Source of the DNA: a virus
DNA: 20,474 nucleotides
Direction: 5' to 3' (one strand)
IMG/VR virus record: IMGVR_UViG_3300027792_000065
Span: 1-20,474 of that record
The translations under genes were made by a program, and so were the position numbers. Under the pieces are notes generated by a model, which saw nothing but the letters and a program-made list of their open reading frames with translations, searched no databases and was not told the origin of the DNA. Of this stretch, positions 1,918-20,474 are shown piece by piece (positions within the stretch are counted from its first letter, which is position 1; every line of letters begins with the position of its first letter).

Positions 1918-3222
1918 TTATAATTTAGTATAGGGTGTATACTTATAAACGATATCTCCGGCTTTATCAACCTTTACAGGCTTTAAAAGCCCATAGAAGT
2001 ATTTATATGGATTCTTTTTACTTTGTACATTATTCCAGATAGATCGAATATAGGCATACATAGTTAGTTCATAAGCTTGAGCTCTTTGGTAAGTTCCGGA
2101 GGTGTTATATCCTTCTGACAACCTCCACAAAAACGATTTATAGATCTGTAGGTGCTTGGATATATCACTAAAAGATACAAGTCCACCCTCCCCAGATTCA
2201 AACCGTTTACGGGCAATATAAAGAGCTTCTGTAAACTGACCACGGCTGTAATTCCATTTTTCATCAAGCCCGCAACAGCTTCCATTATGACAACGATCTT
2301 TATGGTGAGCGTCTGATACATAAAACCGGAGGCCAAGCTTTGTACAAAGTCGATGCATTTTGTCGATATACTTTTCTTTTATTTTATAGTTAAGCCGTAA
2401 ATACCCGCTTGCCGACTGAGTATTCTTTTTGTAAAAATCCAATACGTCAAAGCCTAAAATTTCGCTCATTTTATTATACCGCTTTTTGAGTCCAGGGTGG
2501 ACACGACCCTCCAGACAAAAGAACTCGGTACTGACGGCCGTGGCGCCTGCATTTTTGGCCGATGATATTAAGTAAAGGTATTCATCCTTTACATCGCTTA
2601 AGCCTATTATAAACGGGCGCAGACGTAATGTAACCCCACCTGTACTGTACCGGGTCAGCTCCGCCATAGCTTTAATTCTATCTTCCGGTGAGGGAACACC
2701 TTGTTCCATTTTTTTAGCCTTATCCGCATTGTAATTAATAATGGAAAACTTTACATTCCACAGTCCTTTTGACTTTTCAAAAAGGTTCATATATCTATCG
2801 TCTTGAACCCACCACGTACTCTTTGTAGAAAAACAAATAGGGTATTTAATCCGTAAAAATACCTTCAGTAAATCAAGGCCGACACCATACTGTTTTTCGA
2901 ACATATCGAATGGATCACTTAATCCACCCCACTGGAGAACACGTTTTTCCTGCACGTATCCAGAAAATTGTGTCTTAAGTTTACAGGTAAAAATATCATC
3001 TACCTTTTGGACACTTACAGATTCTGGAGCGATGGTTTGGTAACTTTCGTTTACATTTACAAAGCTCTTGTTCATGTGTTTTAACTCTCGCTGGAAATAA
3101 GAAAAACAGTACAGGCAATCGAACGAGCATCTACTGTACTGATCGAACGTCACCGGCATAGAACAGTCCAGTATTTCCCCACTCCACCGAGGCGATGAAT
3201 ATCCATGCTTTAACTTTTCCAT
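1918..3222 (-). CDS. Radical SAM enzyme, spore-photoproduct-lyase-like
   Basis: 434 aa. Radical SAM enzymes use a [4Fe-4S] cluster to cleave S-adenosylmethionine and start radical chemistry. The cluster-binding CxxxCxxC is clear at C32, C36 and C39 (CSFDCLYC), followed by an aromatic-rich loop. QWGGLSDPFD (97-106) and STKSTWW (132-138) recall the SPL-like subgroup, which acts on thymine-derived lesions, but I cannot assign the substrate. A second cysteine group (C311, C316, C317) might hold an additional metal site. Start ATG 3222 has AAGGAA upstream. It sits between a P-loop kinase and ThyX, behind an operator-like element. That context fits DNA base hypermodification, where phage radical SAM enzymes are known, though repair or tRNA modification are alternatives. 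Confidence 0.88.
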   Translation of the reverse strand: MEKLKHGYSSPRWSGEILDCSMPVTFDQYSRCSFDCLYCFSYFQRELKHMNKSFVNVNESYQTIAPESVSVQKVDDIFTCKLKTQFSGYVQEKRVLQWGGLSDPFDMFEKQYGVGLDLLKVFLRIKYPICFSTKSTWWVQDDRYMNLFEKSKGLWNVKFSIINYNADKAKKMEQGVPSPEDRIKAMAELTRYSTGGVTLRLRPFIIGLSDVKDEYLYLISSAKNAGATAVSTEFFCLEGRVHPGLKKRYNKMSEILGFDVLDFYKKNTQSASGYLRLNYKIKEKYIDKMHRLCTKLGLRFYVSDAHHKDRCHNGSCCGLDEKWNYSRGQFTEALYIARKRFESGEGGLVSFSDISKHLQIYKSFLWRLSEGYNTSGTYQRAQAYELTMYAYIRSIWNNVQSKKNPYKYFYGLLKPVKVDKAGDIVYKYTPYTKL

Positions 3223-4502: not shown

Positions 4503-6623
4503 TTAAATTATTGTTGATTTGTAAATTAAATTTTTTATTCTATTAGATGGTGTATACGTAACCGTACTCCCAAACCCATCTATTTTTTCAAGTTTTGTTT
4601 TTGTCAGTACTCTTAATATGGTAAGATTTTCAACATGCCGTTTTACAGTCGGCGTCGGTAGTCCAATAGCTTCTGAAACTTTCTGTATATCTACTCCAGC
4701 CTTTGCTTCATAAATAAACCGAAGTATATTATAATTATTTTTGTGGACTGTACTCACCGCCACTTCTTTTAAAAGATCGTAAATACTTTCGTTATCTTCT
4801 GTAAATGAATTTATTATATGCAAAGCAATATATAATTTATAGTACTGTTCGGTAAGTCTGGTAGAATATTCTACCATTGGTTTTAATAGAATTTCACCGG
4901 TTCTGTTGTCCCTGATAACAGATCCACGTATTAATCCAGTCCATTGAGCCAGTGCAATAATTTGTTCTTTCTTTTCAATACTCGGTTGGAAAGTAAATTC
5001 AAATTTATAGTTTAAGAATTTAGCCATTACTTCTTGGAGTTCTTCCTGCATAGAACTTTTACTTCCTGACGATATACTGCTCATTATTTTAAACAAAACA
5101 TTTCGTTCCCCTACAATGGAAGTATCTAACTGGACATCAAATCGAATAAACCGTTCTCCGAGTGCTGTTAAGTTTTCAGAAAAGAAATCAATAATACCGG
5201 TTACTCCAGCGATAATACCGAACTTTGATTTATATTTTTTGTCTTCACCATTACCGAACGGTTTTGAACAGTTACCATCAAAGCAATCACGGAGTGTTGA
5301 AATTATTTCTTGTTGACTCGTTATATTCATTCCGGTAAGTGTCGTAAAGTCTTTAATGCATACATCTCTATTGTTTACTCGTGCAACAAGGGAAGGGTCT
5401 TTACCATCGTCTCTTGCGAACCCGCTTATTAATACATGAGGCGTCAATGAAGAAATTGATTCTACTTCTGGAGTACTTCCTAACGACATTAAAATTTCAC
5501 TTTTACCTGACCCGGAAGGACCAACAAGGAATAACCAGACCGAAGCACCTGGAAGCCTATTCGCAACGATTGTTGCCAAAACAATATCAACACTGTTTGT
5601 ATTTTGCAATAGTAAATGTTTATTAAAAACGTCATGCACTTCTTTAATTGAACATCCGGGTCCATCCAGCTTTACTTCTGGTATCGGTGTAGGGGTGCCT
5701 GATTTTGTTTCTACTTCTATTTCATTTATTCCCTTTGGTAAATCCTGTATATTGTCATTTATATAGGTTATCGTTTTTTTACTGTTTTTATTTAGATCAG
5801 TATATAAATCACGAACGTCGTATCCATTTTTAAGCTCATCATCCCAGTGAATAAACTTAAGGCTTTTACACTTTCCTTTTAATAGTTTGTAAATTTTAAT
5901 TGACCCTTTTTTACCCGACCCCAATATTACTTTATCATTTTCAATTCTGTCATAATCATTATCTAATAAAACAGTTACTTCCTTATTTACAAATACGTCA
6001 ACAAAGTCTCGATTAAAACTAAGAGCTCCAGGAAGTCCTATAGAACAACCAATTAACCGGTCTCTTCTTAAAATTTCATCCATTACCATTGTATCCCACT
6101 GTCCTTCACATAAGTAAACAACCGGTGAGTCTATAAGATTTTTTCGAAAGTAAAGTCCTTTATTTGTTCCAGCACTTGAAATAAATTTATACCTTTTGTC
6201 AAAGGCTTTATAATCGTACAAAGCTATATCCATTACTGACCCGTCTTTTTTCAAAGATGGAACATAGTATTTATCTATAATAGGATTATAGCCTACATCA
6301 AAAATGGCAAGCGTTTTAATACCTATACCCCGGTCTGAAGATAGTAACTCATATCTATCATAATTAATATTTTCCAACCCGAAGGTATATAGTTCATTTA
6401 GAAAGGTTTGATATCCGCCTTCTTTTCCACATATTTTGCAGTCCCATTTTTTTGTTTTAACATTTACAAAAAAAGTCTTTTTTGGCTTTGGTGATTTTGA
6501 ACTTTTTGAACCACAAAAAATACATGTTCCAGAAACATTTTCCATGTCAGAGGCGAATCCCGCTGGAGTAAAACCATGTTGTTTAAAAATAGTGAGGTTC
6601 GGGTTTTTAAATAAGTTATCCAT
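4503..6623 (-). CDS. DNA primase-helicase (zinc ribbon, TOPRIM, P-loop ATPase, winged helix)
   Basis: 706 aa; unites the activities that make RNA primers and probably unwind DNA at the phage fork. An N-terminal zinc ribbon has C34-x2-C37 and C62-x2-C65. A TOPRIM domain follows with its catalytic Glu at E173 (LCEGQWD) and acidic pair D221/D223 (LLDNDYD), then DVRDLY near 269. A Walker A motif is at 368-375 (GPSGSGKS); the downstream CIKDF may be a Walker B variant, and GERFIRFD looks like a sensor/arginine region of AAA+ type rather than a DnaB RecA-type helicase. A winged-helix-like segment (VSEAIGLPTPTVKRHVENL) ends the protein. Start has GGAAGGA upstream. The order resembles VapE- or P4-like primase-ATPases more than T7 gp4. 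Confidence 0.85.
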   Translation of the reverse strand: MDNLFKNPNLTIFKQHGFTPAGFASDMENVSGTCIFCGSKSSKSPKPKKTFFVNVKTKKWDCKICGKEGGYQTFLNELYTFGLENINYDRYELLSSDRGIGIKTLAIFDVGYNPIIDKYYVPSLKKDGSVMDIALYDYKAFDKRYKFISSAGTNKGLYFRKNLIDSPVVYLCEGQWDTMVMDEILRRDRLIGCSIGLPGALSFNRDFVDVFVNKEVTVLLDNDYDRIENDKVILGSGKKGSIKIYKLLKGKCKSLKFIHWDDELKNGYDVRDLYTDLNKNSKKTITYINDNIQDLPKGINEIEVETKSGTPTPIPEVKLDGPGCSIKEVHDVFNKHLLLQNTNSVDIVLATIVANRLPGASVWLFLVGPSGSGKSEILMSLGSTPEVESISSLTPHVLISGFARDDGKDPSLVARVNNRDVCIKDFTTLTGMNITSQQEIISTLRDCFDGNCSKPFGNGEDKKYKSKFGIIAGVTGIIDFFSENLTALGERFIRFDVQLDTSIVGERNVLFKIMSSISSGSKSSMQEELQEVMAKFLNYKFEFTFQPSIEKKEQIIALAQWTGLIRGSVIRDNRTGEILLKPMVEYSTRLTEQYYKLYIALHIINSFTEDNESIYDLLKEVAVSTVHKNNYNILRFIYEAKAGVDIQKVSEAIGLPTPTVKRHVENLTILRVLTKTKLEKIDGFGSTVTYTPSNRIKNLIYKSTII

Positions 6624-7026: not shown

Positions 7027-8892
7027 TTATATTTCTATTTCCTCAGCATCACTCCAAGTTTTTTCTGTCATCTTACAACTGACTTCCATGGGTATTTTAA
7101 TTATATTTTTATCAATGTCTGTCATGCACTTTGAAACACCGTAAATTATTTCTTGGATATGTTTCTTTTCTGTTTTTTTAATAGATATAATTAATTCATC
7201 ATGAACTGTTAAAACCATTTTAATTAACTTCTTCCAATCGGTTTTTATATACTTGTAAACATTCCGTTCACCATCTTTAAGTATATCCGCAGCGGTTGAT
7301 TGAATAACTGCGTTTGACAAGACATACGGTTTATATGGATTTGCATATAACTTTCTACCATACGGAGTTCTAATAAACCCGTCTTTCATTACCTGTTTAA
7401 TTGTTTCTTTCGTGTAGTTAAATATCTTTGGTAGTTTTATACCATAGTTTATATACCCCGGTTCTAGAACCGGTCTTGGTAAATTTAATGTTTTACATAG
7501 TTTAATAAGTTTTGCTCCATACGCAATTGCGAACTGTCCATTCTTTGCCGCATCCCTTAATAACTTTTTAGTTCGTTTAAAAGCCTCTTGTCTACTTATC
7601 TTTCCACTTACAAAATCATTATAAATATTTTCACTTATTTTATAAAGGTTATCTATGCAGGTGCCCTCGTTCGTAAACAGGTCTCCAAAAAATACTTCCG
7701 CTGCATACGTATGAGGGTCACCGGTATTGTTTACAATAAAGTCATAATATATTTCTTCTTTTGTAACCTCGGTTATTAAACGTATTTCTATACCTTTATA
7801 ATCAAATAGTAACCATAGCTCTCCAGTGTCTGGAATAAAGCATAAGCGATTATTTACAGGGTATAGGTTTTTTAAAGCTTCTTTTTTCTGTACATTATGA
7901 AGGTTTGGTTTACTTGAACTCTGCCTTCCTGTAACTGCTTCATTCTGTTTAATAGTAGTATGGATTTTACCGTATCGTAAATAGTCCTGAAGATAGGAGT
8001 TTAATATTGCAATACTATTTTGATACGTTCTCCATTTAATAATCAAGTCAAGTATTTTTAGATTTGGATATCGTGCCTTGTATTCTAATAAAGCATCCTT
8101 GTCTTGTACGGGCATCCCTGTCTTAGTTTTTCCAAGTATAGGTAAATTATACTTATTAAATAAAATTTCGTGTACTTGTATTTCAGAATGTAAATTAACA
8201 AAGCCTCCGAGATATTTATATGTATCTAATTGAGTCTGCTTAAATTTATTTGAGGTCTCTTGTAATAACCTTTCTGTATTAGGAACCGAAAGATTAATTC
8301 CATTTCGTTCCATATCAACTGTAACTTTAATTAAATTAATTTCCCTGTTATATACAGAAAGTAATTGTTTGTCTTTACAGATTTCTGGGTAAAATAAATT
8401 ATTCACGACACAGCTTCGAACGGCATCATTATATTGATATGTATCAAAAAGATCTACCGGAACTTTATCGTACCCATATTTTGATCCAATTCTAGAAACT
8501 TGTTTATCCGTCTCATCAAATTGATGGGTGTTACAATATTTATTAACAAGGTAGTCCAGCCCATGCCGAACCTCTATATTAAAAAGTATCTGCGACATTA
8601 ACATAGTACAACCGAGCGGCATATTAACAGATCCATAAAAATTTTCGCAGAAAAAAGTATAATCGAATTTAATATTATGACCAACCTTTACAAGTGAATC
8701 ATCCCTAAGAACCTGATCGATTGTCGAATAGTAATCTTGGTCTCTATCAATCCTGTTAATTATTAACTCCCTTTTATAAGCTATACAATAAGCAAAGACT
8801 GTATCACCATAGAAGGGACGTAGACCCGTAGTCTCGACGTCAATGATACAAGTATTAGATGGTAAACAAAGCGGTTTAATAGGCTTATACAT
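7027..8892 (-). CDS. Family A DNA polymerase with 3'-5' exonuclease domain
   Basis: 621 aa replicative polymerase of PolA type without the 5' nuclease domain. Proofreading motifs: Exo I D18/E20 (DVETTG), Exo II around N73-D77 (GHNIKFD), Exo III Y152-D156 (YQYND). Polymerase motifs: TGRQSSS at 321-327; motif A D364 in DYKGIEIR, where DYSQIELR is usual, so the S-Q pair is replaced by K-G; motif B R446-x3-K450-x3-F454-x3-YG; motif C HDE at 564-566. Phe at the O-helix position matches E. coli Pol I. All catalytic residues are present, so it should be active in both functions. Unusually for this genome, no Shine-Dalgarno precedes the ATG at 8892; instead there are short repeats and a hairpin. Confidence 0.95.
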   Translation of the reverse strand: MYKPIKPLCLPSNTCIIDVETTGLRPFYGDTVFAYCIAYKRELIINRIDRDQDYYSTIDQVLRDDSLVKVGHNIKFDYTFFCENFYGSVNMPLGCTMLMSQILFNIEVRHGLDYLVNKYCNTHQFDETDKQVSRIGSKYGYDKVPVDLFDTYQYNDAVRSCVVNNLFYPEICKDKQLLSVYNREINLIKVTVDMERNGINLSVPNTERLLQETSNKFKQTQLDTYKYLGGFVNLHSEIQVHEILFNKYNLPILGKTKTGMPVQDKDALLEYKARYPNLKILDLIIKWRTYQNSIAILNSYLQDYLRYGKIHTTIKQNEAVTGRQSSSKPNLHNVQKKEALKNLYPVNNRLCFIPDTGELWLLFDYKGIEIRLITEVTKEEIYYDFIVNNTGDPHTYAAEVFFGDLFTNEGTCIDNLYKISENIYNDFVSGKISRQEAFKRTKKLLRDAAKNGQFAIAYGAKLIKLCKTLNLPRPVLEPGYINYGIKLPKIFNYTKETIKQVMKDGFIRTPYGRKLYANPYKPYVLSNAVIQSTAADILKDGERNVYKYIKTDWKKLIKMVLTVHDELIISIKKTEKKHIQEIIYGVSKCMTDIDKNIIKIPMEVSCKMTEKTWSDAEEIEI

Positions 8893-9037
8893 AAGTTTAA
8901 ACAGGGTTTTTAATGGGTTTTTAAATAGGTTTATACGCCATTACAGGCTGTTACAGGGAAGGAGGGAAATACAGCCAACCTTGTCCGGGTTTTTGCTGTA
9001 TATCCCTTAAACCTTCCCTATTAAAGCGGCATCCCGA
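8893..9037 (-). promoter_or_regulatory. 145-bp structured gap upstream of DNA polymerase
   Basis: On the plus strand, arm 8956-8975 pairs with arm 8995-9018. GGGAAGG pairs with CCTTCCC, and 12 of 13 bases of the inner stem pair, with a 4-nt bulge. The loop contains its own AACC/GGTT stem (8977-8980 with 8988-8991). No U-tract follows on either strand, so it is not a simple terminator. Closer to the gene are two TTACAGG repeats 10 bp apart (8941, 8951), two perfect GGGTTTTTAA repeats 11 bp apart (8904, 8915; plus-strand reading) with a weaker third, and a GTTTAAAC palindrome (8895-8902). Candidate roles are a translational operator, an RNA processing site or a replication origin; none is proven. 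Confidence 0.6.
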
Positions 9038-10360
9038 CTACTGTTTATCTATAATCAGGTGTCCAAGACCAAGTCTGGTTAAGAACTGTTTCTGCTTTGC
9101 ATCCAGGGTAGACTTCAAAAATTCGTACTGGGAAAGGTATTTTGCAATTACCTTTTCATTACGATAGTTTTTGACGATGTCCTTTACTTCTGAAATCTCC
9201 TGAGTCTTGCAGAACTTTTCCAGTTCCTTGTCAGACAGTATTCCAGGATTCTTAAGGTTTTCTTCTGATCCTTCACTCTCTGCCTTTGCTTCACTTTTGG
9301 AAAGGAGTGTTTTTAATGCCTTTACGAGCGGGACTCTGGCAAGTAAATCAAAACCTTTTATCCGTTTGTGATACCCGTTCTTTTTGCAAAATGCCTTTAA
9401 TTCCGGGAATGGCATTTCTTCAATATCCGGGTCGGCCACTGCCTCCGCTTCATCGTCTTCAGGTGCATCTTCAACCGTATCCTCAGCCGTATCTTCAGTT
9501 GCATCCACCGACTCGACATCACTGGAAGGTAATGCTTCAAGGATTGCTTCCCGAATCTTTTCATCATCCCAGGACTTCATTACCTGAATGGAAAGCTGAT
9601 TATCCTTTATAAAGGTTTTCAGTTCTGTCCTGTCCATGCCTTGCAAAGAATCCGATAGAGACGGCTCTTCTACTTCGGGGGTTTCTGCTTCCGGTTCATC
9701 CACTTGTCCTGGTTCTGCAGCGGGTTCATTCTCGCGTATTTTATTACGGATGTCGTCGTCACTCCAGTTTTTCATTACGACAACCTCTAACCCGTTTTCT
9801 TTAATGTAGTTTTTCAATTCGGTTCTATCCATGCCGTCAAACGCGTCGGTTCCATCTTCTGCTTCCCCGGTATCTTTCGAACCAGTATCAACCCCGTCTT
9901 CATCAGGACTCCACGGTTTATATGCCTTTACTTCTGGGTAACTACTGTCTTCTTTTTCTTTTACTGAAACGATGCAAAACATATCGGTCTTGTTTATAAC
10001 CGAGAGCATCTCGGATAGAAGATCTGCCGATAAACCGTTGTCCGGTATTTCTGCACCTATTGTAGACAGGAATGAAAAAAAGTATGACTGACCTCCGGCA
10101 TTATGGAGCCACATAGTATCGCCGAAAAGAACACGGTCACGATACTCTTCATCGAGAATAATCCATTTTGGTTTGACGACCGGTTTACCAGCGACGACTC
10201 CAGGTTCAAGTGACTTGAGCTTGGCATGATACTTTCCGTCCGGCATTGTTTCCCGGTTCTTGAAATTTTCTTCGAACAGTTTTTTTGCTTCGACATACGT
10301 CGCCTTCGCATCTTTGTTGAGAAGCTTAATCATCTCAACAGGTAACTTCACTTTACTCAT
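9038..10360 (-). CDS. ssDNA-binding-like protein (DUF669-like) with repeated HeH/SAP-like segments
   Basis: 440 aa. Residues about 35-150 (DGKYHAKLKSLEPG, then VVKPKWIILDEEYRDRVLF) resemble DUF669-type phage proteins, which accompany Sak4-like ATPases and are thought to bind ssDNA. The rest is modular: a near-repeat at 176-212 and 241-277, each starting GMDRTELK and containing VMK(N/S)W, then looser related segments near 312-352 and 376-412. They are separated by very acidic linkers rich in E, D, A and P. The repeats look like small helix-extension-helix or SAP/LEM-type DNA-binding units. Start ATG 10360 shares a base with the stop of the ATPase gene (TAATG), showing coupling. The acidic linkers could act as an SSB-like tail for recruiting partners. 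Confidence 0.7.
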   Translation of the reverse strand: MSKVKLPVEMIKLLNKDAKATYVEAKKLFEENFKNRETMPDGKYHAKLKSLEPGVVAGKPVVKPKWIILDEEYRDRVLFGDTMWLHNAGGQSYFFSFLSTIGAEIPDNGLSADLLSEMLSVINKTDMFCIVSVKEKEDSSYPEVKAYKPWSPDEDGVDTGSKDTGEAEDGTDAFDGMDRTELKNYIKENGLEVVVMKNWSDDDIRNKIRENEPAAEPGQVDEPEAETPEVEEPSLSDSLQGMDRTELKTFIKDNQLSIQVMKSWDDEKIREAILEALPSSDVESVDATEDTAEDTVEDAPEDDEAEAVADPDIEEMPFPELKAFCKKNGYHKRIKGFDLLARVPLVKALKTLLSKSEAKAESEGSEENLKNPGILSDKELEKFCKTQEISEVKDIVKNYRNEKVIAKYLSQYEFLKSTLDAKQKQFLTRLGLGHLIIDKQ

Positions 10361-11142
10361 TACTTCTTCTCCTTTGAAATTGAATAGGTTGTTTTGGAAA
10401 CTTTTGGCTTTAATAACTTATTGTTAAAAGCCGACTCGAAATTACGATACCCTTCTTTTTGATTTTTGCCCATTGGAATATCAATAATAGGTGTTCCATC
10501 AGGATATTTAAATTTACCTACGACTTGACTTCCAGCGTCTAATCCATCGTCACCGGCGATTGTTAAAATTCTGGATCCGTCTATGTCATAGTGAAAGTAA
10601 CCTATAACATTTACGGCTCCTGGATAATAGCTGTTTGCCTGTTTGCTTAAGTCTACCCTGATTTTAGTTTCTTCTATCCCATGCCGTTTCGTAGTTACTT
10701 CTTGAGAATGAGCAAGAACAATAATTCCCTTTCCTAATGCAAAGAGCTCATTGTTTACTTTCTCGAACTCGTTCCTTATAACTGCCCACGTAACACCACG
10801 ATCTTCCGGCATTTCTTCGACTCCAAGCTCTGAAAGAATCCAGTTATAACAATACTGATAAGCACCACCACCAGTATCGATAACGATAGTATCATACGGG
10901 CAATTTGATTTTAGAGAACTGACTGCCGTTTTGAAAGTATTCCAACTTTCCATATAAGCATAATTAATTGGGAGTGCTTTGTAATTATGTTCAAACATTA
11001 AAAACACGGGATTTTTGAACTCCGATGCAAAGCAAGTCTTCCCTATCTTTCGTGCTCCATGGATAAGATAAGTATACTTATTCAAATCGGTTTCCGGTAT
11101 GTTCTTTTTGAAAAGAATACTGGTTACTAATTTAGTCGCCAT
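10360..11142 (-). CDS. Sak4-like / AAA_24 phage recombination ATPase
   Basis: 260 aa RecA-core ATPase. Walker A is GARKIGKT (29-36) and the likely Walker B is TIVIDTGGG (85-93), followed by a VLAHSQEV strand suited to a sensor. This matches the phage nucleotide-binding AAA_24 family that includes Sak4, a single-strand annealing or RecA-like recombination factor working with an SSB. The start at 11142 is chosen because GGAAGGAGGTG stands 6-8 bp upstream; an in-frame start at 11196 would extend deeper into the exonuclease gene. The neighbours (Cas4-like nuclease before, DUF669-like protein after) form the expected recombination set. Confidence 0.85.
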   Translation of the reverse strand: MATKLVTSILFKKNIPETDLNKYTYLIHGARKIGKTCFASEFKNPVFLMFEHNYKALPINYAYMESWNTFKTAVSSLKSNCPYDTIVIDTGGGAYQYCYNWILSELGVEEMPEDRGVTWAVIRNEFEKVNNELFALGKGIIVLAHSQEVTTKRHGIEETKIRVDLSKQANSYYPGAVNVIGYFHYDIDGSRILTIAGDDGLDAGSQVVGKFKYPDGTPIIDIPMGKNQKEGYRNFESAFNNKLLKPKVSKTTYSISKEKK

Positions 11143-12109
11143 ATTTATCACCTCCTTCCAGTTCGGTATAAAATTTATTTGATTGTTTGTACCCATTTAA
11201 AATATTAGTTACACAACTATTTATATGATCACAATAATAACCGGTATGACAACTCGTTTCGTTTCTAAATATAGATAACTTACCGGTCATCAATGCCTTC
11301 ATTTCTTTTACCTTTGCATCGACCTGTAAATCGAAATTTATCTGTTCTTTCTTTGTAAATAGGTGGGGGATTCGAACATAGTAATGTTCTGGATCATGTT
11401 TTATTTTACTTGTAAGATCATCAATTATTATTTTTGATTTGACGGGCTTTTTGTTTTTCTTACCTGGAGATGGATTTCGAATAATATCATAAATAATTTT
11501 AAAACAAGGTAAGTCATAATCTTTAGAAATAGACGTAGTATAGAATAAGCACTGTAAATCAAGCGGGAGCGCTTCCTCAATACCCTCATCTACCCTTCCT
11601 TTTAATTTGTGTTCCATCAAATCCAGTTCGTTTTTATTTGAAGATTGAAAAATAAGATCTATCTTGCCGACCCGATTATAACCATTGTATGGAACTGTAA
11701 ATTCATGTTCGGGCTTGATTATCTTTTTTTTCAGATCCACTTTACCCCATTTATTAATATACCCCAAAGCAATTACTTCCAGGATCTGTATACTTAACTC
11801 CAATTCATCATCACTAATATACATTTCATCCAGTTCTTTTTTATGTGTCTGTAAAGACTTTATATAAGCCCGTTTAATATCTGATAATCCAGGCAAGGTA
11901 TTTTTTTTAATAAATTGAAAATAACTTAATAGAAAGTCATGGAACAATGTTCCTCTATAAGCAGTTTTTTTACCGACCCGTTTGAATCGGTTCATCCGAA
12001 TCAAAAATGCAATCCTACATTTTGTATATGTACTCAATAAACCTTGACTCACTCCTGGGTCAGTAAAAGAAAATTCTGGAAAACGTAAATCGGATAATTT
12101 AATAATCAT
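11132..12109 (-). CDS. PD-(D/E)XK exonuclease, Cas4/AddB-like with probable Fe-S cluster
   Basis: 325 aa. The nuclease core shows GTLFHDF with H57, GKIDLIF with D151, then the E167-x-K169 pair (MEHKLK) and Q186 in the LDLQCLFY helix, the order found in RecB-family nucleases. C31 lies ahead of the core and C287, C293, C299 follow it, a split four-cysteine arrangement like the [4Fe-4S] cluster of Cas4 and AddB, although the C-terminal spacing (x5, x5) is not the standard one. It probably resects DNA ends for the adjacent Sak4-like ATPase. ATG 12109 overlaps the glycosylase stop as ATGA. No CRISPR array is present, so a Cas role is not indicated. Confidence 0.85.
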   Translation of the reverse strand: MIIKLSDLRFPEFSFTDPGVSQGLLSTYTKCRIAFLIRMNRFKRVGKKTAYRGTLFHDFLLSYFQFIKKNTLPGLSDIKRAYIKSLQTHKKELDEMYISDDELELSIQILEVIALGYINKWGKVDLKKKIIKPEHEFTVPYNGYNRVGKIDLIFQSSNKNELDLMEHKLKGRVDEGIEEALPLDLQCLFYTTSISKDYDLPCFKIIYDIIRNPSPGKKNKKPVKSKIIIDDLTSKIKHDPEHYYVRIPHLFTKKEQINFDLQVDAKVKEMKALMTGKLSIFRNETSCHTGYYCDHINSCVTNILNGYKQSNKFYTELEGGDKYGD

Positions 12110-14598: not shown

Positions 14599-14605
14599 AA
14601 AACGC

Positions 14606-14642
14606 AAAAAGGGAGAAGGCTGTTTTGCCTTCTACCCTTTTT
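14606..14642 (-). terminator. Strong hairpin terminator before helicase gene
   Basis: Minus-strand arms AAAAAGGGTAGAAGGC and GCCTTCTCCCTTTTT pair over 15 bp with one bulged T and loop AAAACA. The 3' arm ends in five T, followed by GCGTTTT. The A-rich 5' side makes it potentially bidirectional. It follows the 102-aa gene (stop at 14673) and ends 8 bp before the helicase ATG. Confidence 0.85.
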
Positions 14643-14672
14643 CCATAAAAGGTAATTGCGAAAGGTAGTTTG

Positions 14673-15185: not shown

Positions 15186-15220
15186 ATAAAAAAAAAGAAA
15201 ACCAATAAACGGTTTTCTTT
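15186..15220 (-). terminator. Rho-independent terminator after 94-aa gene
   Basis: Minus-strand AAAGAAAACC and GGTTTTCTTT form a 10-bp stem with loop GTTTATT, followed by a run of T (plus 15188-15196). It lies 25 bp past the stop at 15245. Two TTTTGTAAATTA direct repeats stand between the stop and the hairpin. Confidence 0.88.
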
Positions 15221-15244
15221 TTGTAAATTATCTTTTGTAAATTA

Positions 15245-16269: not shown

Positions 16270-16296
16270 TAAAAAACTCTGTACATTTATACAGAG
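16270..16296 (-). terminator. Short hairpin terminator after 85-aa secreted protein gene
   Basis: Minus-strand CTCTGTA and TACAGAG form a 7-bp stem with loop TAAATG, followed by TTTTTT. It starts 13 bp past the stop at 16309. The short stem and the lack of a following promoter suggest partial termination. Confidence 0.75.
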
Positions 16297-16308
16297 CGTT
16301 ATATACGT

Positions 16309-16764: not shown

Positions 16765-17064
16765 TTAATTACAACCAGCGGCTGTTTCATTATTTACTTT
16801 TTGTTCTGCGTATTCTTTGCAGTATCTACAATTACAATTATCAGGATGATTTTTCAACTCTTCAATCAAAGTATACCCAGAAGAATTTTTTAGAGATATA
16901 CGGCATGGAAGAATAGGTGCAACTCCATTATTATTTTTTGTAACAAGTCTCAAAAAATCATAAGCTTTTTGACCGCTTAATACATAAAAAGAGGTTACAT
17001 CCACAATAGAACCGCTCGGTTTTAAATGGTTTAAGTTCTTTACTGTAACTTTAATTTGATACAT
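16765..17064 (-). CDS. Hypothetical protein with C-terminal cysteine cluster
   Basis: 99 aa, not recognised. N-terminal half is beta-rich (MYQIKVTVKNL, SIVDVTSFYVLSG), then a helix and a C-terminal CNCRYCKEYAEQ with a final cysteine two residues from the end. Start at ATG 17064 is chosen because AAAGGAG lies 6 bp upstream; the frame extends to an ATG at 17088 without such a signal. It follows the 85-aa gene at 17091 in the same transcript from the promoter at 17.40 kb. Confidence 0.65.
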   Translation of the reverse strand: MYQIKVTVKNLNHLKPSGSIVDVTSFYVLSGQKAYDFLRLVTKNNNGVAPILPCRISLKNSSGYTLIEELKNHPDNCNCRYCKEYAEQKVNNETAAGCN

Positions 17065-17090
17065 AGAGCACTCCTTTATTTTGTTCATAG

Positions 17091-17513: not shown

Positions 17514-17546
17514 ATAAAAAAAGAACCTTGTCAAAAAGGTTCTTTT
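17514..17546 (-). terminator. Rho-independent terminator of the tail gene operon
   Basis: Minus-strand AAAAGAACCTT and AAGGTTCTTTT form an 11-bp stem with loop TTTGAC, followed by a T run (plus 17516-17522). It stands 26 bp past the stop at 17572. A TTTGTAAATTTC half-match to the dispersed palindrome lies between the stop and the hairpin. Confidence 0.9.
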
Positions 17547-19963: not shown

Positions 19964-20326
19964 TTATACGGCCGAATAAATAAGTCTGTCTACCTGAACC
20001 ACCGTTCCACTAACGATTGTTAATGGAGTAACGAGGCCTGTTGCTGGAACCTCCACAACCATATCACCGTTTCCATCGCATAGTTGTATTTTGGAAGGTG
20101 TTCCAGAAAGGATTGCAGTTTCTGAAATTGGAGTTTCATCGACTTCAAATTGCCAGTCCTCTAAAGTTCCAGCTCCAAGAACAGTCAGTTCAATTGGATC
20201 AACCTCCAACAAGGTCTGTCCGGCTGAATTTAGCACTTTTAAAATAGGATCGCCTTCGGCAAGTAGAGCCGTTCTTGTGTCTGTCGCGTGACTTATTTTT
20301 ACGGCATTACTATGTACTGTTGACAT
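19964..20326 (-). CDS. Small beta-rich structural-region protein
   Basis: 120 aa, family not recognised. Composition is acidic, rich in Thr, Val and Leu with alternating strands (ILKVLNSAGQTLLEVDPIEL, IQLCDGNGDMVVEVPA, LTIVSGTVVQVDRLIYSAV in parts), like small virion, tail-completion or neck proteins, and with no membrane segment. AAAGGAG lies just upstream of ATG 20326. It is the first gene after the tandem repeat array and is followed 20 bp later by the baseplate fusion gene. A structural role is inferred from position only. Confidence 0.6.
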   Translation of the reverse strand: MSTVHSNAVKISHATDTRTALLAEGDPILKVLNSAGQTLLEVDPIELTVLGAGTLEDWQFEVDETPISETAILSGTPSKIQLCDGNGDMVVEVPATGLVTPLTIVSGTVVQVDRLIYSAV

Positions 20327-20355
20327 ACAAGCTCCTTTATTTTTTTAAATGAATA

Positions 20356-20474
20356 ACTATTTGTAAATTTACAAATCAATCAGTTAAATATCAGTTAAAA
20401 ACCATTCGTAAATTTACAAATCAATCAGTTAAATATCAGTTAAAAACCATTCGTAAATTTACAAATCAATCAGT
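20356..20474 (-). repeat. Tandem 45-bp palindrome-bearing repeat array (at least 2.6 copies)
   Basis: Cores GTAAATTTAC at 20363-20372, 20408-20417 and 20453-20462 are spaced exactly 45 bp. The last two units are identical as far as visible; the gene-proximal one differs on its 3' flank (minus strand ACAAATAG instead of ACGAATGG) and there forms a 14-bp perfect palindrome TTGTAAATTTACAA. The linker itself duplicates TTTAACTGAT 11 bp apart. The array runs off the window. Single copies of the unit occur at 1131-1158, 1874-1912 and 3241-3280. Likely multi-site operator, promoter array or iteron-type origin. Confidence 0.85.

Follow-up and report, generated by a model that had tools for sequence, protein, structure and literature searches.

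A long hairpin that follows the gene for a putative DUF669-type single-stranded DNA-binding protein (SSB) and precedes the gene for a family-A DNA polymerase in a virus contig is probably a 3'-end element of the ssb mRNA, which would raise SSB over the downstream polymerase, rather than a leader element acting on the polymerase. All evidence presented here is sequence, and the starts and genes in the relatives were called by simple rules. The window, i.e. the whole stretch of DNA analysed, is an IMG/VR virus contig of 20,474 bases with a GC content of 35.7% and with its genes on the minus strand. The 145-nt gap at 9037..8893 (minus strand) lies between the DUF669 gene, with its stop at 9038, and the polymerase ATG at 8892. 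The features are as follows, in the direction of transcription:

10360..11196, minus strand: gene for a Sak4-like annealing protein (phrog_124, E 1.4e-29; Pfam AAA_24), upstream of ssb
9038..10360, minus strand: DUF669-type ssb gene, 440 aa (Pfam PF05037, predicted fold, sak4 neighbour), putative owner of the hairpin
8953..9021, minus strand: hairpin of 26 bp (from folding; most stable 74-nt segment, offset in agreement with relatives)
8893..8952, minus strand: AU-rich spacer from the hairpin to the polymerase ATG, with AAAAACCC repeats (from the sequence)
7027..8892, minus strand: gene for a family-A DNA polymerase with a 3'-5' exonuclease domain (Pfam DNA_pol_A, E 2.1e-54)
4503..6623, minus strand: primase/helicase-like gene (phrog_239, E 5.6e-6), used as a query for finding relatives

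The hairpin (9021..8953, minus strand) consists of 10 bp, a 4-nt bulge, 5 bp, a U.U mismatch, 7 bp and an inner stem of 4 bp. Its distance is 16 nt from the stop of ssb and 60 nt from the polymerase ATG downstream. With -36.4 kcal/mol its 74-nt segment is the most stable among 4080 segments scanned on the coding strand of the window; the best value in 20 dinucleotide-shuffled whole windows was -29.5 kcal/mol. The fold z-score is -3.46 for the whole gap and -5.6 for the hairpin, which places the latter among the strongest of the loci compared. No U-tract adjoins the hairpin on either strand, and it thus differs from a canonical terminator (GC-rich stem plus U-tract). The original prediction of a long imperfect hairpin without U-tract in this gap was borne out by folding and shuffles.

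The direct repeats reported together with the hairpin are present as well, with modest statistical support: the 8-mer AAAAACCC occurs three times in the gap on the minus strand (8994, 8922 and 8911, spanning 8904-8994), one copy being within the hairpin loop, and an imperfect 28-nt repeat is also found. Of 4066 windows 145 nt long, 20 contain some 8-mer of equal complexity three times, as do 2 of 2000 mononucleotide shuffles. These repeats, and the fact that the region folds about equally well on both strands, would suit a replication origin or another cruciform element acting at the DNA level with binding sites. Such a role, which had also been proposed, is very improbable: no skew switch was observed, the AAAAACCC repeats are absent from the gap of the nearest relative, and the hairpins of the relatives are mostly shorter, unrelated in sequence and often followed by a U-tract on the mRNA strand.

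The product of 9038..10360 matches Pfam PF05037 with E 8e-6, above the cut-off. The AlphaFold model of the first 166 residues of the protein (pLDDT 85) has as its best Foldseek match PrgE of pCF10 (E 1.3e-5), one of the PrgE entries being DNA-bound. PrgE binds single-stranded DNA. For phage HK620, published work established that the DUF669 protein is an SSB and acts with Sak4 (PMC5928155, partial text). As in HK620, the ssb gene of the window adjoins sak4. On the basis of Pfam, the predicted fold and the published relative, the gene upstream of the gap is classified as a putative DUF669-type SSB gene. SSB is needed in bulk, the polymerase in few copies.

Relatives were obtained with alignment queries: that of the polymerase delivered one clear relative (L013), and those of primase and polymerase together a large group. 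Scans of viral contigs with single proteins (polymerase, primase and a protein resembling radical-SAM enzymes) and blastn against phages delivered no relatives. A scan of genome contigs gave three matches with query A5 and none with query A6. One of the three, L253, is a relative whose contig was placed in a MAG of Candidatus Falkowbacteria, which hints at the host group or at a misbinned virus. The order Sak4, DUF669 SSB, family-A polymerase and primase is common to many relatives. The nearest relative (L173/L251, IMGVR_UViG_3300032069_000013) shares 46% identity in the polymerase alignment and 50% in the primase. No leader sequence is common to the window and this relative, so that the stem of the window is without an alignable counterpart.

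Near-duplicates (24 of 94 loci) were removed. An HMM built from the DUF669 N-domain found ssb in 73 of 84 de-duplicated loci, and the 11 loci without a match were left out. The ssb gene lies within 300 nt of the polymerase in 41 of the 73 loci and farther away in 32, mostly with other reading frames in between. A hairpin was counted when a compact stem of -10 kcal/mol or better occurred within 110 nt of the stop codon. This threshold was first used in an initial count, ahead of the counts on the second set and on the separated loci. The initial count considered the ORF before the polymerase and gave a hairpin at -10 in 18 of 28 near loci and in 12 of the 28 far ones; as its far controls contained ssb, it was replaced by the counts on the separated loci and on all loci. 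In an earlier step, 14 of 70 loci were dropped for lack of a usable upstream region. The second set comprises 14 contigs that were collected once the hairpin pattern was known; L274 was left out of its hairpin count.

The 32 loci in which ssb and polymerase are separated indicate which gene owns the hairpin. At -10 kcal/mol a hairpin follows ssb in 26 of them and precedes the polymerase in 3; at -15 kcal/mol the numbers are 22 and 0. Over all loci the hairpin follows ssb in 55 of 73 cases. Among other genes it occurs after 93 of 706 (Fisher p 7e-29 for the difference), and among those with a gap of 40-400 nt behind them after 42 of 234 (p 4e-19). Other families have it less often: sak4 in 5 of 56 cases, polymerase in 7 of 71 and primase in 13 of 64. 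The ssb hairpin is the strongest of its own locus in 45 of 73 loci, with 7.9 expected. Median fold z-scores, which need no definition of a stem, agree: they are -2.72 after DUF669 genes, -0.29 after other genes (219 sampled) and 0.11 before separated polymerases. In the second set the hairpin count was 9 of 13 versus 5 of 79. The distance from stop codon to hairpin in the relatives has a median of 18 nt (middle half 12-30 nt; 16 nt in the window). Eighteen of the 73 loci fall below the threshold, the window among them: the strict stem finder scores its hairpin 0 owing to the bulge and the large inner loop, and it does not contribute to the 55 positive loci.

Loops and stems are unrelated in sequence between relatives (by eye), and a conserved loop as expected for an operator is not seen among them. 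Between L122 and L125 one stem pair is changed on both sides, a compensatory change (by eye). Judged from these comparisons, it is the structure and position of the post-ssb hairpin that are conserved, and not its sequence, and the hairpin stays with ssb when the polymerase is elsewhere.

The polymerase ATG has no Shine-Dalgarno (SD) sequence (duplex energy +1.5 kcal/mol), while 22 of the 28 listed ORFs reach -4.2 kcal/mol or better. Five further ORFs fall short of -4.2: three have apparently misplaced TTG starts; in a fourth, 16765-17088, the start at 17064 with its AAAGGAG is preferable; and the fifth (10360-11196, the Sak4-like ORF) overlaps its neighbour, its true start probably being further in than listed. 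The start of the SNF2 helicase is probably ATG 14598 and SD-less as well. The statement that nearly all genes carry such a site and the polymerase does not therefore holds for the polymerase and is a slight overstatement for the others. The polymerase leader resembles the stretch ahead of 16765-17088, a similarity that was discarded: this stretch belongs to the coding region of the preceding gene, at its 3' end, and 16765-17088 has the better start just named.

In the near relatives (window included) 6 of 26 polymerase starts are SD-less; among control genes the figure is 18 of 321, a difference with p 0.005. The second set gave 2 of 13 versus 4 of 77 (p 0.21), which is not significant, and SD-lessness is not claimed as a conserved trait. 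All eight SD-less polymerase starts adjoin ssb (8 of 34 adjacent versus 0 of 5 separated loci), and the nearest relative, L173/L251, has one too. The missing SD is thus real and common to the nearest relative, but a minority trait; it fits low expression of the polymerase. Most relatives have an ordinary ribosome-binding site here (20 of 26; 11 of 13), part of what the original prediction had named as speaking against it.

These SD-less starts, and the joint occurrence of hairpin and SD-less start in one gap in both the window and its closest relative, are what a polymerase leader would lead one to expect. Under that proposal, translation from the SD-less start would be repressed through binding of the hairpin by the polymerase itself or by a different phage protein, in the manner of T4 gp43. 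The operator of T4 gene 43 is likewise a hairpin upstream of the start of a phage DNA polymerase; it measures 18 nt, lies some 40 nt ahead of that start, makes contacts that extend over the ribosome site, and shares its loop with RB69 (PMC3014915, partial text). The hairpin of the window is different: it measures 69 nt, is tied to ssb, has no conserved loop, and precedes a polymerase of family A, to which gp43 does not belong. The distance from hairpin to ATG also varies, with 60 nt in the window versus 3-13 nt in L103, L106, L251 and L095. Together with the separated loci, where the hairpin is kept with ssb and not with the polymerase, and with the lack of a significant SD-less excess in the second set, this renders gp43-like autoregulated translation improbable.

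The hairpins of the relatives are diverse. The gap of L173 contains an A-tract, a 7-bp stem, a U-tract and then the SD-less polymerase ATG. Terminator-like hairpins of unrelated sequence occur in L095, L106, L271, L273, L276 and L277, and strong stems without U-tract in L100, L103, L104 and L174; L105 and L108 have a gap of 13 nt and no hairpin. A U-tract was detected in 27 of the 55 ssb hairpins versus 13 of 93 other hairpins, by a test that misses L251, where the stem runs into the U-tract. The loci of the 28 U-less ssb hairpins are richer in GC (median 0.54 versus 0.42). Most low-GC relatives with a hairpin have a U-tract, and the window is atypical in this respect.

In two relatives the gap holds a tRNA: a tRNA-Gln in L021/L147 (L021 3788-3861) and a tRNA in L098 (4184-4284; Rfam E 2.8e-7, no call by ARAGORN). 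A separate structured or small RNA might accordingly be sought in the gap of the window too, an explanation of very low probability. In the window, no Rfam family reached its gathering score and the tRNA search found none; the best sub-threshold Rfam matches in the gap are hairpin look-alikes with 20.4 of the 90 bits needed. L147, moreover, has the ssb hairpin besides its tRNA.

The 27 canonical hairpins with U-tract and the AU-rich 60-nt spacer would also agree with a plain terminator that ends the sak4-ssb unit, with a separate promoter in the spacer behind the hairpin driving the polymerase. This is unlikely, if somewhat less so than a polymerase leader: the hairpin of the window has no U-tract, no promoter of the sigma-70-like types covered was found in the gap, and in L106, L103 and L251 only 3-11 nt separate hairpin and ATG, too short for a promoter.

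The favoured reading of the hairpin as a 3'-end element of the ssb mRNA includes several possible modes of action. Transcripts of sak4 and ssb would be terminated, processed or protected at the hairpin, and ssb mRNA would then outnumber the downstream polymerase mRNA. In many relatives hairpin and U-tract may cause partial intrinsic termination. In the window the hairpin more likely serves for processing, or as a block against 3'-5' exonucleases, than as an efficient terminator, because the hairpin lacks a U-tract and a U-less stem of an ABC-importer operon of R. cellulolyticum did not terminate (PMC9045158, partial text). The RNA processing suggested in the original prediction is retained as part of this explanation, with its place moved to the 3' end of the SSB message. 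The weak, SD-less polymerase start would reduce the polymerase further, in the same direction. Since 28 of the 55 ssb hairpins have no U-tract, the element may have a lineage-wide role beyond that of a terminator, namely mRNA protection, nuclease-directed processing or binding of SSB to its own message, which it would control from the 3' end; this is considered a tentative, less likely option.

In ABC-importer operons, internal intrinsic terminators follow the high-copy gene, which encodes the substrate-binding protein, and these stem-loops reduce the downstream transcripts (PMC9045158, partial text). The likeness extends to the layout in R. cellulolyticum, with the stem-loop just behind the high-copy gene and lower-copy genes after it, and to the long stems with unpaired middle regions and variable U-tracts (PMC9045158, partial text). 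Here, in contrast, the operon is a phage replication operon with ssb followed by polymerase and a U-less stem, and is known from its sequence. In the cip-cel operon stem-loops set processing and stability; intergenic stem-loops there determine mRNA ratios by cleavage and end protection, which suits a U-less hairpin (PMC10311766, partial text). The phage hairpin differs in being a putative processing element. In rpsU-dnaG-rpoD of E. coli an intercistronic terminator is combined with a weak primase start. This operon is named among processed operons (PMC10311766, partial text). Both arrangements lead from a high-copy gene through a hairpin to a replication gene of low copy number whose ribosome site is poor; the genes are unrelated, and the comparison is an analogy only. 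The mRNA of T4 gene 32 is cut by RNase E and has a 5' pseudoknot, and the SSB it encodes is of a protein family different from DUF669. This transcript is characterised as the most stable mRNA of T4; the likeness is to an SSB message from a phage, unusually stable and subject to processing (PMC3014915, partial text).

Elsewhere in the window, 14602-14646 is a canonical terminator immediately before the SNF2 helicase start, a layout of terminator and start that matches the polymerase in L251, L095 and L106. Intergenic terminator-like hairpins with U-tracts are found on the minus strand at 15192-15222, 16276-16297 and 17519-17546, which indicates that canonical terminators are used elsewhere by the same phage. 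Tandem repeats of 45 bp (2.7 copies, 97% matches) extend over 20355-20474 up to the contig end, upstream of the first gene (20326..19964, minus strand). Each repeat contains the palindrome TTTGTAAATTTACAAA or a near copy, and they are possible operator or origin iterons. The protein encoded at 1918-3222 has a CxxxCxxC cluster and presumably resembles a radical-SAM enzyme; it had no match in Pfam or in the phages collection, and shares stretches of 48-58% identity with relatives L093, L095, L103 and L114.

Among ten cultured phages with an SSB of the HK620 type (HK620 included), a hairpin directly follows ssb in five (L289, L291, L292, L293 and L295) and not in the other five, with L291 and L293 sharing the same hairpin; the best stem of HK620 itself falls within the next gene. 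No description of a post-ssb hairpin was found in titles and abstract openings within the literature collection searched for phage SSB with terminators or stem-loops. The finding leads to a testable rule, that the SSB gene of a phage replication operon ends in a hairpin, across very distant phages. If this is true, one operon would yield much SSB and little polymerase by simple means. Structures found ahead of a gene can in fact be part of the adjacent one, a reason for caution when leaders are read from a single genome.
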